A stretch of DNA of 64,000 nucleotides from Nostocoides sp. Soil756. GTDB lineage: Bacteria; Actinomycetota; Actinomycetes; Actinomycetales; Dermatophilaceae. This document shows positions 46,003 to 53,366 of this stretch, in pieces. The stretch is from the NCBI RefSeq assembly GCF_001428065.1, contig NZ_LMSE01000006.1, positions 62,437 through 126,436 on the forward strand, given 5' to 3'. Position numbers and translations under genes: made by a program. Position 1 is the stretch's first letter, and every line of letters starts with the position of its first letter. The notes under the pieces are model-generated. The model searched no databases. It saw nothing but the letters and a program-made list of their open reading frames with translations, and was not told where the DNA came from.

Positions 46003-47304
46003 GTGAAGGTCCTCGTCATCGGGTCCGGTGCTCGCGAGCACGCCATCGTCCGGGCGCTCACGCTCGACCCCACGGTCGACGCGGTGGTCGCGGCCCCGGG
46101 CAATCCCGGCATCGCCGCGCTGGTGCCGTGCGAGGCTCTGGAGGGCGGGATGGCCGACGCCGACGCGGTGCTCGAGGTGGCGCGGCGGTACGAGGTGGAC
46201 CTCGTGGTGGTCGGGCCGGAGGCGCCGCTCGTGGCCGGGCTGGCCGACGCCGTGCGGGCGGCAGGGCTGGCGTGCTTCGGGCCGTCGTCGGCGGCGGCGG
46301 TGCTCGAGGGCAGCAAGGCCTTCGCCAAGGAGGTCATGTCGTCCGCCGACGTGCCGACCGGCCGGGCGCTGGTGTGCACCACCGTCGACGAGGTGGACGA
46401 CGCCCTGGGGGCGCTGGGGGCGCCGCACGTGGTCAAGGACGACGGGCTGGCGGCCGGCAAGGGCGTCGTGGTGACCGACGACCGCGACGAGGCGCTGGCG
46501 CACGGCCGGGCGTGCCTCGACAAGCCCGGCGGCCGGGTGGTGGTCGAGGAGTACCTCGACGGCCCCGAGGTCTCGCTCTTCTGCATCTGCGACGGTCAGC
46601 ACGTCGTGCCGCTCGCGCCCGCGCAGGACTTCAAGCGGGTCGGAGAGGGCGACACCGGCCCGAATACCGGCGGGATGGGCGCTTACAGCCCCCTGGACTG
46701 GGCTCCGGCCGGGCTGGTCGACGACGTCGTGGCGCGGATCGCCCAGCCGGTGGTCGACGAGATGCACCGGCGCGGCACGCCCTTCGTCGGGGTCCTCTAC
46801 GTCGGGCTGGCCTTGACCGTGCGGGGGCCCCGGGTCATCGAGTTCAACGTGCGCTTCGGCGACCCCGAGACCCAGGTCGTGCTCGACCGTCTGCGCACGC
46901 CACTGGGCCGGCTGCTGATGGCGGCCGCCACCGGCCGGCTCGACGAGCTCGAGCCGCTGCGCTGGGCCGACGAGCACGCGGTGACGGTGGTCGTGGCGGC
47001 GGCCGGGTACCCCGCCAGCCCGCGTACCGGCGACGTCGTGACCGGCGCCGACGCGGCGGAGGCGGCGGCGGCGGAGGCCGGCGCCTACGTGCTACACGCC
47101 GGGACCGTGCGCAGCGCCGACGGCTCGCTGGTCAGCGCGGGCGGCCGGGTGCTGTCGGTGGTCGGGCGCGGAGCCACGCTGGCGCAGGCCCGTGAGCGGG
47201 CGTACGCGGCGGTCGACGGCATCGGGCTCGACGGTTCGCACCACCGGCGCGACATCGCCGAGAAGGCCGAGCGCGGCGAGGTCGCGGTCCCCGTCGCGGG
47301 CTGA
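46003..47304 (+). CDS. purD: phosphoribosylamine-glycine ligase (GAR synthetase)
   Basis: 433-aa ATP-grasp ligase making GAR from PRA and glycine in purine synthesis. KVLVIGSGAREHAIVRAL (N-terminal Rossmann), VVKDDGLAAGKGVVVT, VVVEEYLDGPEVSLFCIC (ATP-grasp), QDFKRVGEGDTGPNTGGMGAYSP and EFNVRFGDPETQVVLDRL (metal binding). GTG start set by the -10. Convergent with the LLM gene. Not in tandem with the other pur genes here. Confidence 0.96.
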   Translation: MKVLVIGSGAREHAIVRALTLDPTVDAVVAAPGNPGIAALVPCEALEGGMADADAVLEVARRYEVDLVVVGPEAPLVAGLADAVRAAGLACFGPSSAAAVLEGSKAFAKEVMSSADVPTGRALVCTTVDEVDDALGALGAPHVVKDDGLAAGKGVVVTDDRDEALAHGRACLDKPGGRVVVEEYLDGPEVSLFCICDGQHVVPLAPAQDFKRVGEGDTGPNTGGMGAYSPLDWAPAGLVDDVVARIAQPVVDEMHRRGTPFVGVLYVGLALTVRGPRVIEFNVRFGDPETQVVLDRLRTPLGRLLMAAATGRLDELEPLRWADEHAVTVVVAAAGYPASPRTGDVVTGADAAEAAAAEAGAYVLHAGTVRSADGSLVSAGGRVLSVVGRGATLAQARERAYAAVDGIGLDGSHHRRDIAEKAERGEVAVPVAG

Positions 47305-47326
47305 CGCGCGGCCCGCGCGGCGCCCG

Positions 47327-48247
47327 TCAGGCCAGGGCGGCGTGGATGTCGGCGAGGTGGTCGAGGTCCGCCAGGTCGAGCACCTGCAGGTAGACCCGGG
47401 CCGCCCCCGCCTCCGCCAGCCGGCCGAGCCGCTCGCGGGCCTCCTCCGGGGTGCCGGCGATGCCGTGGGCGCGCAGCTCGGCGGCGTCGCGGCCGATGGC
47501 GGCCGCCCGGCGCGCGACGGCCGCGTCGTCCCTGCCGATGCACACGACCTGGGCGGCCGAGTGCACCATCGAGAGCGGGTCGCGGCCGTGCTCCTCACAC
47601 ACCTCGTCGACCCGCGCGAACATCCGGGCGGTGTCGTCGGCCGACGAGAAGGGGGCGTTGAACTCGGCGGCGTAGCGGGCCGCCAGCGACGGGGTGCGCT
47701 GCTTCCCCCCGCCCCCGACGATGATCGGCACCCCACCCTCCTGGACGGGTCTGGCCAGGGCCGGGCTGTCACTGACCGGGTAGTGCGAGCCGTCGTGCTC
47801 GTAGGGCCGCCCGGCCGGGGCCGACCAGAGGCCGGTGATGACGGCCAGCTGCTCCTCGAGCCGGTCGAAGCGCTCGCGCAGCGGCGGGAAGGGGATGCCG
47901 TAGGCCGCGTGCTCGGCCTCGAACCAGCCGGCACCGAGGCCCAGCTCGACCCTCCCGCCGCTCATCTGGTCGACCCCGGCCACCGCCACGGCCAGCGGCC
48001 CGGGCAGCCGGAAGGTGGCCGAGCTGACCAGGGTGCCGAGCCGGATGCGGGAGGTGTCACGGGCCAGGCCGGCCAGCGTGGTCCAGGCGTCGGTGGGCCC
48101 GGGGAGGCCGTCGCCGTCGCCCATGTGCAGGTAGTGGTCGGAGCGGAAGAAGGCGTCGAAGCCCAGGTCCTCGGCCGCCCGGGCCACCGCCAGGAGGTCG
48201 TCGTAGGTGGCGCCCTGCTGGGGCTCGGTGAAGATCCGGAGGTCCAT
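47327..48247 (-). CDS. LLM class F420-dependent oxidoreductase
   Basis: 306-aa luciferase-like oxidoreductase, F420-type: MDLRIFTEPQQGATYDDLLAVARAAEDLGFDAFFRSDHYLHMG (typical N-terminus), RIRLGTLVSSATFRLPGPLAVAVAGVDQMSGGRVELGLGAGWFEAEHAAYGIPF, and VPIIVGGGGKQRTPSLAARYAAEFN. F420 is the usual cofactor (established for this subfamily). ATG 48247 is set by TAGGTT 7 nt upstream. Convergent with purD. Upstream is the unknown operon, on the same strand, but a palindrome separates them. Confidence 0.88.
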   Translation of the reverse strand: MDLRIFTEPQQGATYDDLLAVARAAEDLGFDAFFRSDHYLHMGDGDGLPGPTDAWTTLAGLARDTSRIRLGTLVSSATFRLPGPLAVAVAGVDQMSGGRVELGLGAGWFEAEHAAYGIPFPPLRERFDRLEEQLAVITGLWSAPAGRPYEHDGSHYPVSDSPALARPVQEGGVPIIVGGGGKQRTPSLAARYAAEFNAPFSSADDTARMFARVDEVCEEHGRDPLSMVHSAAQVVCIGRDDAAVARRAAAIGRDAAELRAHGIAGTPEEARERLGRLAEAGAARVYLQVLDLADLDHLADIHAALA

Positions 48248-48254
48248 GCGCCCC

Positions 48255-48260
48255 AACCTA
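48255..48260 (-). promoter_or_regulatory. candidate leaderless -10 (TAGGTT) of the F420-oxidoreductase gene
   Basis: Reverse-strand TAGGTT with 7 nt to ATG 48247, no Shine-Dalgarno. Confidence 0.5.
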
Positions 48261-48300
48261 CGCAGCGGCGGCCGCCGCGTCGCCCCGCGCCCGCCCCCGC

Positions 48301-48334
48301 GCTGACGTCAGCTTTTCGGGGTCACCCCGAAAAG
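48301..48334. terminator. double palindrome at the end of the unknown operon
   Basis: GCTGACGTCAGC (48301-48312) is a perfect 12-nt palindrome. Directly next, CTTTTCGGGGT (48312-48322) pairs with ACCCCGAAAAG (48324-48334) around one base. It lies 79 nt after the stop of the last unknown gene. Strong stem-loop, no U-run; acts as terminator or binding site. Confidence 0.65.
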
Positions 48335-48412
48335 TGCACCGGACAAGGGTTGCGAGGCGGGGCCTCGTGCAGGAGCTCGTGTGTCGGGGCCCGGATGCCG
48401 CGGGCCGTCGGC

Positions 48413-49027
48413 TCAGCGCCGCAGGTCGGCCACCGTCATCCCGGCCACGGCGCCCTCGTCGAGCGACCCGAGCAGCGTCACGCACACCGCCCACAGCGCC
48501 GCCCCCCGGATGCCGTCGGGGGCGGTACGGGCCACGTCGACCACTCGGCGGTCCCGGTCGGCGGCCTCCGGTGGGGGCAGCGCCACCGCGCAGGCCCGGG
48601 CCCGCGCCACCAGCCGCAGCACCTCGACCCCGAGCTCGTCGGCCCAGGCAGCCACGACGCCGGGCGCCGCCGCCGCCAGCTCGCCGACGGTCCGCACCCC
48701 CAGCCCGGCGAACCGCTCGGCCCATCCCTCCCCGACCCCCGCGACCGCCCGCACCGGCAGTGCCGCGACCGCCGCCGGCACCCGCGAAAGGACCTCCTCC
48801 GACGTCCCGGCGGGCGGGGGCCCCTGCGCCCCGCCCGCCCGGAAGTGCAGCTCGGCCTGCCAGGCGACCTCGTCCCAGGCCGGCTCGCCGCCGCCGGGTA
48901 CCGCCCCCACCCGCGCGACCACGTGGTCGAGGGTGATGACGCGCGCGGACTCGACGGCCGCCATCGCGCCCGCGACCCCCGCGTCGGCCTCGCGGGCCAG
49001 CAGGCCGGCCAGCTCGGCGGGCTCCAT
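48413..49027 (-). CDS. unrecognised protein with helix-hairpin-helix segment (unknown operon, gene 3)
   Basis: 204-aa soluble protein I do not recognise. Residues about 91-130 (LPVRAVAGVGEGWAERFAGLG, then VRTVGELAAAAPGVVAAW) form a helix-hairpin-helix pattern, as in DUF4332-like or Rad51-type HhH segments that bind DNA or protein. The N-terminal half is helical with a polar PG-rich loop (GGGEPAW, GGAQGPPPAG), ending with a strand-like AWQAELHFRAG. No signal peptide or membrane helix. It starts 2 nt after the stop of the neighbouring unknown gene, so the three genes form one operon. No function can be assigned. Confidence 0.7.
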   Translation of the reverse strand: MEPAELAGLLAREADAGVAGAMAAVESARVITLDHVVARVGAVPGGGEPAWDEVAWQAELHFRAGGAQGPPPAGTSEEVLSRVPAAVAALPVRAVAGVGEGWAERFAGLGVRTVGELAAAAPGVVAAWADELGVEVLRLVARARACAVALPPPEAADRDRRVVDVARTAPDGIRGAALWAVCVTLLGSLDEGAVAGMTVADLRR

Positions 49028-49029
49028 CC

Positions 49030-49764
49030 TCAGACCTCCGTGTGGAAGCGGATCTCGACCTCGCCGTACACGTCGGCCCGGGTGGTGCCGGGCGTGGCGG
49101 GGTCGTCGGCCGTCGGGGGGCGGACGGTGAGCCGCAGGTCGCGGATGGAGTCGAGCACGCTCGCGCTCAGCACCGGGCGCATCGTCACGAGCCGGTCCAG
49201 GGCACCGACGCGCACGGACGGCGTCACCGCCGGTGCCGGCGGCCGGGGCGCCGCCGCAGGGGTGGCCGTCGGGGTCGTCGCGCTGCGCACCGTCGAGAAC
49301 GTCAGCTTCGAGCGCAGCGTCCCGCCGTCGACGACCACCTTCGGCATCCCGCGCCGGGCGATCTCGCGGATGCTCTCGAGCTGGTCGTGGGCGATGGCGA
49401 GGCGCACCGCCTCGGTGACCCGGGCGACCCCGGCGGCGGTCAGCCGCCGCCCCTCGAGGTCACCGTCGGCCAGGGTGACCCCGAGGTCGGCCAGTACGTC
49501 CTTGCGCGGCACGGCGCCCCCGACGACGAGAGCGGTGCCGCCGTCCGTGCCGGGGAAGGTACGGCTGAGGGCGGCGGCCACGACGTCGTCGGGCACCGCC
49601 GTGGCCGCGAACTCCTCGGGGGTCATCGCGGCGGACTCCTCGACCGCCCGCCGGCGGTCCTCCTGGCTGGAGTGCGCCGCGACGATCGAGTCGAGCGTCT
49701 CCACCAGGAGGACCGCGACGAAGTCGGCGAAGCCGACGTCCGCGACCGCTGGGGTGTCGGGCAT
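49030..49764 (-). CDS. unrecognised protein, paralogue of neighbour (unknown operon, gene 2)
   Basis: 244-aa soluble protein of unknown family. N-terminal helices (FADFVAVLLVETLDSIVAA, 12-30), a middle helical block (LTAAGVARVTEAVRLAIAHD and REIARRGM, 108-140), then beta-like KVVVDGGTLRSKLTF (142-156), a Pro/Ala/Thr-rich linker (165-185) and a C-terminal strand EVEIRFHTEV. Residues 108-160 align without gaps to 131-183 of the neighbouring unknown protein (about 16 identities), and both end V.I.FHT, so they are paralogues. No catalytic motif seen. ATG start 14 nt after the preceding gene. Confidence 0.7.
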   Translation of the reverse strand: MPDTPAVADVGFADFVAVLLVETLDSIVAAHSSQEDRRRAVEESAAMTPEEFAATAVPDDVVAAALSRTFPGTDGGTALVVGGAVPRKDVLADLGVTLADGDLEGRRLTAAGVARVTEAVRLAIAHDQLESIREIARRGMPKVVVDGGTLRSKLTFSTVRSATTPTATPAAAPRPPAPAVTPSVRVGALDRLVTMRPVLSASVLDSIRDLRLTVRPPTADDPATPGTTRADVYGEVEIRFHTEV

Positions 49765-49778
49765 GGCCGCGGACCCGC

Positions 49779-50573
49779 TCAGGCCTGGTTGAGCGGCAGG
49801 TAGTCGGTGTGGAAGTTGATCTTCACGCCACCGGTGATCTGCACGTCGACCCCCGAGCTGTTGCCCGAGACGGTGTCGGTGGTGCTGACCCGCACCGTGC
49901 TGAAGGCGGTCGAGGCCGAGGCCTTCACCCACAGCGACACCAGGCCGCCGGACTTGGCGCTGGCCCGGAAGTCGAAGGCGCTGCGCGAGTAGTCGGTGCT
50001 GTGGGTGCTGAAGTAGTCGGAGCCGTAGGCCCGGAAGTTCAGGCCGGTCTCGATCGAGCCGTTGTCGACGACGAGGCGCAGCATCCCGAGCTTCACCATG
50101 TCGACCAGGAGGGTGTACTTGTTCGCCGCGATCCGGATGGCCGCGGCCTCCTTGATCTTGTCGACGTCAGCCTGGGTGAGCTTCTTGGCGGTGGCGACCT
50201 TGTTGTCGTCGGCCACCCCGCCGCCGGTGACCTCGAGGGCCTTGTTGACGGCGGTGGCGTCGGCGGCGGTCAGGGTCTGGTCGACCGCGATCTTCGACGG
50301 CTCGGAGGTGGCGGTGGCGTCGGCCGGGGGCGCCGCGGCCGAGAGGAGCTGCATGATCTCCTCGGGCCCGATGTCGTCCTTGGTGTCGTTGATGTAGGTC
50401 GTCAGCGTCTTCGCGGTCTCCTTGAGCAGCTCGATCTGCGCCTGCTGCTGGCGGATGTTGGACGCCACCAGCGCGTCGAAGACGTCGCTGACGAGCTTGC
50501 AGGTGAACTCCGGGAAGTTGATCTCGTCGAGCCGCGACGCGAACCCGATCGCGGCATCTCCTCCTGTGGCCAT
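49779..50573 (-). CDS. unrecognised protein, paralogue of neighbour (unknown operon, gene 1)
   Basis: 264-aa soluble protein, first gene of the unknown operon. N-terminal helices (FTCKLVSDVFDALVASNIRQ, 23-42; QIELLKETAKTLTTYIND, 46-63), an Ala/Thr-rich linker (75-130), a helical block (LTQADVDKIKEAAAIRIAAN, 132-151), and a long beta-rich C-terminus (LRLVVDNGSIETGLNFRAYG and GGVKINFHTDYLPLNQA) with many Ser/Thr. A distant resemblance to DUF2589-type proteins (helical N-part, Ser/Thr-rich beta C-part) is possible but untested. Its codon use and GC look like the surroundings. The ATG has no strong SD; GGGAG lies 12 nt before. Confidence 0.7.
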   Translation of the reverse strand: MATGGDAAIGFASRLDEINFPEFTCKLVSDVFDALVASNIRQQQAQIELLKETAKTLTTYINDTKDDIGPEEIMQLLSAAAPPADATATSEPSKIAVDQTLTAADATAVNKALEVTGGGVADDNKVATAKKLTQADVDKIKEAAAIRIAANKYTLLVDMVKLGMLRLVVDNGSIETGLNFRAYGSDYFSTHSTDYSRSAFDFRASAKSGGLVSLWVKASASTAFSTVRVSTTDTVSGNSSGVDVQITGGVKINFHTDYLPLNQA

Positions 50574-50655
50574 GGTGCTACTCCCTGTGCGAGATGTGGC
50601 GCACGCCGGTCGTGCGTCCTGGGGAGAGGAGGGGGCGACGCGGGGCGGTGATACC

Positions 50656-51870
50656 TCAGGCGGTGCCGACGGTGACGGCCTCGGCCTCGATCTCGGAGTC
50701 GATGCGCTCGGCGCCGTGCTCGGGCTGCGCATCGATCGCCCGCACCAGCGAATGCCCCGTGCTCAGCACCGCGACCGCCAGCACGACCGCCCCGGCGCCC
50801 ACCCAGAACGGGATGTGCACCGACTGCTCGCCGAGCCGCCCCGCGAGCCAGGGCGCCACCGCCCCGCCGCTGAAGCGCACGAAGCTGTAGGCCGACGACG
50901 CCACGCTGCGCTCGACCGGCGCGACCTTCATGACCGTCTCGGTGATGAGGGTGTTGTTGATGCCGAGCAGGCCACCGGCCACGACCACGCCGACCACGAG
51001 GACGCGCTTGTCGTCGGTCCAGATCGCCATGACGGCCAGCACGGCCGCGAAGCCCAGCAGCGCGCCCACCATCCCGACGTAGGTCCCGACGTGGCGCTGC
51101 ACCCAAGGCGCGATGAGCACCGAGGAGATGGCGAGGAACAGGCCCCAGCCGAAGAACACCAGCCCGGTGCCGTGCGCCGACAGGTCGAGCGGGAACGGGG
51201 TGAAGGCCAGCAGGGTGAAGAAGCCGAAGTTGTAGAGGAGAGCGGTGACGCCGACGGTCAGCAGCCCGCGGTGGCGCAGCGCCTTGAAGGGGGCGCTGAG
51301 CGGGGTCGGGTGCGGCCGCTCGGTGGAGGCCGGGAGGGTGATCCACGTGGCGAGCAGGGCCACGAACATCAGGGCGCTCACCCCGAAGAACGGGTAGCGC
51401 CACGACATCCCGCCGAGTGCCCCGCCGACGAGCGGGCCGGCCGCGATACCGAGACCGAGGGCGGCCTCGTAGAGGATGATCGCCTGCGCGACCGAGCCGC
51501 GCGCGGCGCTGACGATGGTCGCGAGGGCGGTGGCGATGAACAGGGCGTTGCCCAGGCCCCACACGGCGCGGAACCCGACGATGCCGCCCACGGTGTCCTG
51601 CGTCCCGGCCAGCCCGGCACCGACGATGATGATGGCCAACCCGATGAGCAGGGTCCGCTTGGCCCCGATGCGGCTCGAGACCCAGCCGGTGATGAGCATC
51701 GCCACGCCCATGACGGCCATGTAGCTGGTGAACAGCAGCGAGACCTGCGACGGCGAGGCGCCGAGCGCGTCGGCGATGGGCTTGAGGATGGGGTCGACGA
51801 GGCCGATCCCCATGAAAGCGACGACGCAGGCGAACGCGACGCTCCAGACGGTCTTGGGTTGACGCCACAT
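50656..51870 (-). CDS. MFS transporter, DHA1-type (12 TM)
   Basis: 404-aa major facilitator with 12 helices. VDPILKPIADALGASPSQVSLLFTSYMAVMGVAML (helices 1-2), MFS motif A-like SSRIGAKRTLLIG, GLGNALFIATALATIVSAARGSVAQAIILYEAALGLGIAAGPLVGG (motif C region) and the second-half repeat SVASSAYSFVRFSGGAVAPWL. Drug or metabolite efflux is probable. It lies just downstream of the marR gene on the same strand (29-nt gap), so MarR likely controls it. ATG with GAGAGGA upstream. Confidence 0.85.
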   Translation of the reverse strand: MWRQPKTVWSVAFACVVAFMGIGLVDPILKPIADALGASPSQVSLLFTSYMAVMGVAMLITGWVSSRIGAKRTLLIGLAIIIVGAGLAGTQDTVGGIVGFRAVWGLGNALFIATALATIVSAARGSVAQAIILYEAALGLGIAAGPLVGGALGGMSWRYPFFGVSALMFVALLATWITLPASTERPHPTPLSAPFKALRHRGLLTVGVTALLYNFGFFTLLAFTPFPLDLSAHGTGLVFFGWGLFLAISSVLIAPWVQRHVGTYVGMVGALLGFAAVLAVMAIWTDDKRVLVVGVVVAGGLLGINNTLITETVMKVAPVERSVASSAYSFVRFSGGAVAPWLAGRLGEQSVHIPFWVGAGAVVLAVAVLSTGHSLVRAIDAQPEHGAERIDSEIEAEAVTVGTA

Positions 51871-51899
51871 GGGCTCGTGGTTCCTCTCGGTGGGGATGG

Positions 51900-52349
51900 T
51901 CAGGGGGTGCGGGGGAGGGCGGGCGAGGGGCTGCGGGTGGCCTCGACCAGCTCGGCCAGCAGCGCCACGGCGTCGCGCAGGCGGGCGGGGTCGGCGTCGA
52001 GCCCGGCCATCACCGGCTCGAGCGCCCTGGCGCGGGCGCGGCGGGCCTCACCGAGGGCCCGGGCGCCGGCCGCGGTGAGGGAGACCAGCCCGGCCCGCCC
52101 GTCGTCGGGGTCGGGGACGCGGCTGACGTAGCCCTCGGCCTCGAGCCGCTGCACCTGGGCCGTCATCGTCGGCTGGCTGCTGTCGTCGGCGGCGGCCAGG
52201 GCGGTGACCCGGGCCGGGCCGAGCTCGTCGACGAGCGAGAGCACCCGGGTCTGGGCCCACGGCAGCTCGAGGGCGGCGTGCCGGCTGGCCCAGCGCGAGA
52301 TGCGCGCGGCCGACCGGAGCAGGTCGTCGGCGAGGTCGGCGGTGGTCAC
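51900..52349 (-). CDS. MarR family transcriptional regulator
   Basis: 149-aa winged-helix repressor. [89 protein letters not shown] has the MarR recognition helix (SQPTMTAQVQRL) and wing (DPDDGRAG). GTG start right behind a TATAGT -10 that lies inside its palindromic operator. Divergent from purC. It is expected to regulate itself and the MFS gene in response to a small phenolic or similar ligand. Confidence 0.9.
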   Translation of the reverse strand: MTTADLADDLLRSAARISRWASRHAALELPWAQTRVLSLVDELGPARVTALAAADDSSQPTMTAQVQRLEAEGYVSRVPDPDDGRAGLVSLTAAGARALGEARRARARALEPVMAGLDADPARLRDAVALLAELVEATRSPSPALPRTP

Positions 52350-52355
52350 CGCTCC

Positions 52356-52361
52356 ACTATA
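52356..52361 (-). promoter_or_regulatory. leaderless -10 (TATAGT) of marR
   Basis: Reverse-strand TATAGT with 6 nt to GTG 52349. It touches the first base of the palindrome, so repressor binding would block transcription. Confidence 0.6.
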
Positions 52362-52381
52362 GATAGATAGCCTATCTATCT
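52361..52381. promoter_or_regulatory. MarR operator palindrome
   Basis: AGATAGATAG-C-CTATCTATCT: a perfect 10-bp dyad around one base, unusually A/T-rich for this genome, covering the marR promoter between marR and purC. Confidence 0.8.
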
Positions 52382-52433
52382 CAACGGGGACGAGGGCGCG
52401 ACGGCGCCCCTGCGGGCTGGAAGGATGGCGCCC

Positions 52434-53366
52434 ATGGCCGACGCCCCCGTGCCCGCTGTCCCCGCCCCGCTCGAGCTCGCCGGGTACGCGCCCGTCTACT
52501 CGGGCAAGGTGCGCGACCTCTACGCCCCGCTCGACCCGGCCACCGGGGCCCCCCGCGACGACCTCCTGCTGCTGGTGGCCTCCGACCGCATCTCGGCCTT
52601 CGACTTCGTCCTCGACCGCCCGGTGCCCGACAAGGGCGAGGTCCTCACCCGGATGTCGCTGTGGTGGTTCGAGCAGCTGGCCGACCTGGTGCCCAACCAC
52701 GTGGTCTCCACCGACGTCCCCGACGCCGTGGCCGGGCGCGCCGTCCTGGTGCGCCGCCTCGAGATGCTGCCGGTCGAGTGCGTCGCCCGGGCCTACCTGA
52801 CCGGCGGCGGGCTGCGCGAGTACCGCACCGACGGGCACGTCAGCGGCCTCCGGCTGCCCGCGGGGCTCACCGACGGCTCGCGCCTGCCCGAGCCCCTCTT
52901 CACCCCCTCGACCAAGGCGCCCCAGGGCGAGCACGACGAGCCCATGTCGTACGCCGCCGTCGAGGCCGCCCTCGGCCCGGAGCTGGCTGCCCGGGCTCGC
53001 GACCTGACCACCCGGATCCTGGCCCGCGGCAACGAGATCGCGGCTGAGCGCGGCATCCTCATCGCCGACACCAAGGTCGAGTTCGGGCTCGAGGGCGGCG
53101 AGCTCGTGCTGGCCGACGAGGTGCTGACGCCCGACTCCTCGCGGTTCTGGCCGGCCGACCAGTGGGAGCCCGGCCACCCGCAGCCCAGCTTCGACAAGGA
53201 GTTCGTCCGCGAGTGGCTCCTGTCGCCGGCCAGCGGGTGGGACAAGGCCTCCGGCGAGGCGCCCCCGCCGCTGCCCGACGACGTCCTCGAGCGCACCCGG
53301 GCCAAGTACGTCGAGGCCTACGAGCGGCTCACCGGGCGGCCCTTCGCCGCCGGGCCGGTAGCCTGA
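52434..53366 (+). CDS. purC: SAICAR synthase
   Basis: 310-aa ATP-grasp-like ligase adding aspartate to CAIR in purine synthesis. [10 protein letters not shown] start, [71 protein letters not shown] and [30 protein letters not shown] are diagnostic. ATG 52434 is chosen for GGAAGG 9 nt before; 52425 is an alternative. purL starts 47 nt downstream, likely one transcript. Confidence 0.95.

Follow-up and report, generated by a model that had tools for sequence, protein, structure and literature searches.

A conserved accessory operon encoding two paralogous proteins and a helix-hairpin-helix protein in Actinomycetota and Bacteroidota, and its distant relatives in peptidase-rich gene clusters

Among described systems, the closest parallels to the locus reported here are found among the conflict systems that Kaur et al. 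2020 (PMC7159879) described, in which Trypco2 (PF19631) is a trypsin-co-occurring domain, and of which System 3 (peptidase and NucA systems) brings together an S8 peptidase with papain-like and lysozyme effectors in one cluster. A further parallel is provided by genuine DUF2589 (PF11655) genes, which occur as tandem paralogous pairs (L083 5383-6876, L084 5101-6738, and L085 5974-7988); the pair in Burkholderia stagnalis is followed by a GH24 lysozyme gene, and an N-acetylmuramidase gene is located near the pair on the Smac51 plasmid. Only DUF2589 matches confirmed by Pfam were used.

The locus lies within the window, a 64,000-nucleotide stretch of a Nostocoides sp. Soil756 contig, and consists of three genes, A, B and C (Table 1). 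These had been described in a first-pass annotation as closely packed minus-strand genes separated by gaps of 14 nt (A to B) and 2 nt (B to C), and the coordinates, strand and spacing are all correct. The GC3 of the cassette is 0.96-0.97, like that of the adjacent genes, and neither a sigma-70-type promoter nor a U-tract terminator was found for it. The dN/dS ratios between the window and G006 are 0.06 for A, 0.24 for B, and 0.32 for C, and within the genus g17 they range over 0.07-0.36, 0.14-0.24, and 0.18-0.34, respectively. All three are thus under purifying selection (dN/dS 0.06-0.36), which indicates that they are genuine genes.

Table 1. Coordinates of the cassette and associated features in the window.
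Feature	Coordinates	Strand	Remarks
Gene A (P0001, 264 aa)	49779..50573	-	Most conserved cassette member
Gene B (P0002, 244 aa)	49030..49764	-	Full-length paralogue of A by sequence comparison, faster evolving
Gene C (P0003, 204 aa)	48413..49027	-	Short N-terminal alpha/beta region and helix-hairpin-helix
Core block of A, residues 130-183	50025..50186	-	R.AA.KY.LL..MV..GmLRLVV..G.IET.L.F; common to B
Core block of B, residues 107-160	49285..49446	-	GMPKVVVDGGTLRSKLTF; matches that of A
HHH region of C, residues 83-156	48560..48781	-	Resembles the DNA polymerase IV HHH
Accessory insert	48275..50653	.	Missing from congener G007; DNA comparison
Perfect palindrome CTTTTCGGGGTCACCCCGAAAAG	48312..48334	.	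3' of C; folds as a terminator-like hairpin

The position of the trio was examined by DNA comparison of the window locus with four congeners (L106-L109; genomes G007, G001, G003 and G011). In G007 the gene order is purD-LLM-MFS with no trio, and window segments 46912-48274 and 50654-52600 are only 20 bp apart, an empty site that bears out the earlier description of the unit as resembling an insertion. No 7-mer is held in common as a direct repeat within the insert edges tested, and there is no integrase or transposase in or adjoining the trio. The perfect palindrome said to close the unit is present but is not cassette-specific, being one of 36 genome-wide copies at two or fewer mismatches (compared to 0 in a reversed control); it was therefore rejected as a cassette or insertion boundary, and the family to which it belongs probably represents terminators or a palindromic repeat unit. 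We also note that the LLM-MFS interval is variable in the genus, with a second MFS gene, a MerR gene, and an acetamidase-like gene at or near this spot in G001, G003 and G011. If the trio were an accessory operon for metabolism or physiology that had been acquired by chance next to purD/LLM and MFS and had a role tied to the flanking transporter, the other transporter-type genes carried at the spot in these three congeners would be in keeping with it; however, the neighbours of the trio differ by genus and there is no enzyme signature, and we regard this explanation as improbable.

The A-B-C order is kept in G006, G076, G032, G027 and four further g17 species, in G171, and in two Bacteroidota MAGs (L002 and L003), so that the trio, treated as a unit in the first-pass annotation, recurs as a conserved cassette in scattered Actinomycetota and beyond. 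Carriers make up 9 of 188 genomes sampled from the window's family (among them G584, which is of the long type described below), 7 of 396 from its order (long types included), and 2 of 397 from its phylum, and there are two among 188 Bacteroidota genomes with the query genome counted in. Within g17 the trio occupies one conserved locus; from genus to genus its neighbours change, and the loci are unrelated. As the Bacteroidota trio carriers are MAGs, a binning error is possible, but the AT-rich flanking genes look like those of Bacteroidota. Identity between the window and the Bacteroidota proteins is 55% for A, 25-28% for B, and 14-16% for C, an inequality that fits occasional transfer together with strong constraint on A, which is 55-66% identical to its homologues from other families and phyla. 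Weak matches to A in G002 (E 1e-4) and G016 (9e-4) were not recovered by a broader profile and were taken as chance. A tblastn search of A and its relatives against 50,697 phage records gave no match and four viral-contig scans were also empty, and with no relatives in either a phage or prophage origin of the trio was rejected. As judged from these sequence comparisons, A-B-C is shown to be a conserved, selected accessory operon of an undescribed family that spreads horizontally.

The first-pass annotation could assign none of the three genes to a family, and this holds in the library searches. A and B match no family in Pfam, NCBIfam, PHROGs or PADLOC (B at chance level only, with E-values of 0.13 and 0.23) and nothing beyond chance among PDB sequences, C carries a helix-hairpin-helix (HHH), and none of the three matches a defence model in PADLOC-DB 2.0.0 at E up to 10. 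A literature search on the cluster returned nothing relevant. Within these libraries and papers, nothing already described corresponds to the family or the cluster, although the underlying biochemistry may prove familiar. Neither of the outcomes named in the first-pass annotation as refuting it, confident matches to known families or absence of the trio from other genomes, was obtained.

That A and B are paralogues sharing about 16 identities had also been proposed, and this stands, although the residue numbers given were off by one. When only the two window proteins are compared, the resemblance is modest and no more than suggestive: the best ungapped stretch of 53 residues has 16 identities, a number also reached in 21 of 2000 shuffles. 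Inclusion of relatives makes the case, with phmmer E-values of 2.5e-10 to 4e-6 between A-type and B-type proteins in both directions, and hhalign values of 98.8% and 99.3% over about 225 columns; on this evidence A and B are full-length paralogues. The alignment confirms the common motifs noted earlier, namely an N-terminal F..L helix, a GM/V-strand-VVVD.G block, and a C-terminal V.I.F.T motif (V.INF.TDYLPL at the end of A), and seven positions (F20, F23, L27, Q42, G172, V250 and F254 in A numbering) are invariant in 15 proteins of the A and B types. The N-terminal half of A is predicted to be a helical bundle, and the C-terminal half is modelled, at low confidence, as beta-rich; predicted helices span residues 20-54, 57-67, 70-80, 103-112, and 134-162. 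The AF2 models of A have pLDDT values of 55 and 65, and Foldseek searches of PDB and viral models with these weak models returned nothing below E 0.001. Both PDB fold searches showed a COMMD-like octamer (9q6a) at E 0.8-4.8, which was absent from the sequence searches and was rejected.

The DUF2589 pairs resemble A and B in being two small tandem paralogues that carry a helix at the N-terminus as well as a beta-rich Ser/Thr/Ala region, but differ in that there is no detectable sequence homology, the VPLLTIVPIPY motif is absent, and no HHH partner was seen. The DUF2589 Pfam profile does not match A or B at E up to 10, nor 11 A-family proteins at E up to 1, and hhalign against three confirmed DUF2589 proteins gives 1.9% for the A family and 0.1% for the B family. 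The distant relationship to DUF2589 raised in the first-pass annotation is thus unsupported and homology was rejected; the two would instead constitute a functional parallel without homology.

The HHH recognised earlier in gene C is evident from matches to DNA polymerase IV HHH-region profiles (E 1.1e-4), to PDB 7yll (E 7e-5), and, in members of the C family, to HHH_5 (E 0.0034), with DUF4332 also matched in relatives; it may bind either nucleic acid or protein. C is the least conserved member of the trio, with 14-41% identity, and in a Bacteroidota genome (G1051; L082 5265-9059) an A-B pair occurs without an adjoining C gene, both of which point to A-B as the core of the cassette. This pair is preceded, at a distance of 372 bp, by a predicted AAA-TOPRIM (OLD-like) nuclease gene. 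One explanation is a stress or defence module linked to DNA. The HHH of C would then bind DNA, A and B would form a signalling or effector platform, and wall hydrolases found near relatives would be incidental. The resemblance to the polymerase IV HHH, the accessory, rare and patchy distribution, and the OLD-like gene in G1051 are all consistent with such a module, but HHH domains bind proteins too, PADLOC gives no match, and it is C that is the least conserved and is not found beside the G1051 pair; we consider this module quite unlikely.

More distant relatives of A, reached through tblastn and profile searches, occur in considerably longer gene clusters. They belong to an extended A-like superfamily that we define by an FP.F...L helix, a G..R.VV..G.I...L.F block, and a V.i.F.(T/S)(D/E)Y.pL C-terminus, motifs that are found in two alignments (A4 and A11); BLAST and phmmer E-values against window A range from 6e-13 to 1e-8, and all-against-all BLAST connects the long-cluster components with each other and with window A. 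The long clusters share an S8 subtilase, one or more A-like proteins, and a large helical protein (L030 1-15711; L052 3500-14184; L066 1792-13969; L068 2624-12795), mostly with a Trypco2-like/HHH protein, and with a variable complement of C70 papain-like peptidase, amidase, lysozyme and peptidoglycan-binding genes. In Burkholderia pyrrocinia pBPJTT (L2Y90_RS32820-32875; L030), for example, there are four A-like proteins (E down to 6e-13) and a C-like protein with an HHH, together with an S8 subtilase, a helical protein of 602 aa, and a giant protein with Amidase_2, C92 and C70 domains. This undescribed cluster differs from the trio in its longer proteins and in these many extra genes. In actinobacterium G074, the genes found in pBPJTT are divided between contigs, with A-like genes together with S8, C70 and amidase genes. 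G584 encodes A-like and C-like proteins, S8, two papain-like (C70) proteins and the helical protein; G914 encodes an A-like protein, S8, the helical protein and a phage-lysozyme protein; and Tolypothrix plasmids encode an A-like protein, a C-like protein with IPT/TIG, S8, PG_binding_1 and the helical protein. A homologue of the large helical protein is also present in a different cluster in Paraburkholderia PGU19 (L075 4753-10873), beside a protein with EGEWE-type repeats and with no A-like gene found.

The long clusters resemble System 3 in their S8 peptidase, papain-like and lysozyme effectors, but the A and B proteins are absent from the description of that system, and no trypsin, NucA or EAD domain was found here; VMAP, MoxR and vWA genes were likewise not recognised in the neighbourhoods of the trio or the long clusters, the long-cluster proteins having been scanned against Pfam and the trio flanks mostly judged by eye. 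The relationship to Trypco2 is also slight. It is matched only by the Burkholderia long-cluster C-like protein, at E 0.0098 over the N-terminus and below the curated cut-off, this protein and Trypco2 having in common that N-terminal match and a location near peptidases. The Trypco2 profile does not match window C, and hhalign gives 4.3% and 1.6%, the latter for the C alignment; the trio C proteins are themselves only weakly linked to the long-cluster C-like proteins (hhalign 3.4%).

Among the short trios examined, the only wall-hydrolase neighbours are an endolysin gene directly downstream of the L002 trio (phrog_465, E 1e-39) and a divergent L,D-transpeptidase in L031, and most trio loci, including that in the window, have no adjoining peptidase or wall hydrolase. 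From gene neighbourhoods, the link to wall hydrolases thus appears well supported for the long clusters and thin for the trios. The first-pass annotation considered both a structural or assembly role and a DNA-linked defence or stress role possible; the neighbourhoods of the distant relatives favour an assembly that would be linked to peptidases and peptidoglycan hydrolases. No obvious signal peptides were seen by eye on the enzymes, which would suit an intracellular assembly.

An assembly need not imply conflict, and A and B could instead build a particle, filament or ring, either cytoplasmic or released, that serves as a storage body, compartment or surface structure, with the long-cluster enzymes acting in its maturation or release. 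A slow-evolving A alongside its paralogue is a combination typical of hetero-oligomers, the long clusters have as many as four A-like copies together with large helical proteins, and S8 peptidases can process assemblies. However, no capsid, tail or encapsulin fold was found for A by Foldseek against PDB and viral models, the models of A being weak, and we view a purely structural role as possible but rather doubtful.

The occurrence of A-like scaffolds with S8 and C70 peptidases and peptidoglycan hydrolases in the long clusters makes deployment of lytic enzymes the likeliest function, and we tentatively favour a scaffold of A and B with C as an adaptor, which would retain or activate lytic enzymes as part of a conflict response. 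We infer that A and B, diverged copies of one protein that is helical in its N-terminal half and beta-rich in its C-terminal half, come together in a cytoplasmic hetero-oligomer, the AF2 model of A having reached a pLDDT of only 65. The constrained subunit, in contact with itself, would be A, with B as its variable partner; the unequal identities across phyla are what would be anticipated if most contacts in the assembly were made by A. C, with its HHH and an N-terminal domain that is faintly Trypco2-like, may then connect the scaffold with either DNA or a partner, and the core could act by lysing the infected cell or by attacking other bacteria. The window carries the short form, which would either rely on enzymes from genes located elsewhere or function in their absence. 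Counting against this model are the lack of an adjoining peptidase or wall hydrolase at most trio loci, the lack of any defence-model match, the lack of phage or viral relatives, and the weak links of trio C to the C-like proteins and to Trypco2.

In a broader interpretation, which we think unlikely, the trio and the long A-like clusters would constitute one undescribed system spanning at least four phyla (Actinomycetota, Bacteroidota, Pseudomonadota and Cyanobacteriota). Its A/B scaffold would assemble itself and bring proteases and peptidoglycan hydrolases into action, making up a machine for lysis or bacterial antagonism that has no relationship to phage tails, injection systems or known defence systems, and the trio would be the smallest mobile version of it. 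The DUF2589 pairs suggest that a paralogous beta-rich pair accompanied by a wall hydrolase may be a general design, one that is in no paper found by the literature search. A family that has no Pfam or structural match, whose A proteins are 55% identical between Actinomycetota and Bacteroidota, and that is carried by at most a few percent of genomes makes a good candidate for a mobile system that has escaped notice, and the proteases and cell-wall hydrolases recurring beside its distant relatives provide a directly testable hypothesis of a role in lysis, defence or competition.
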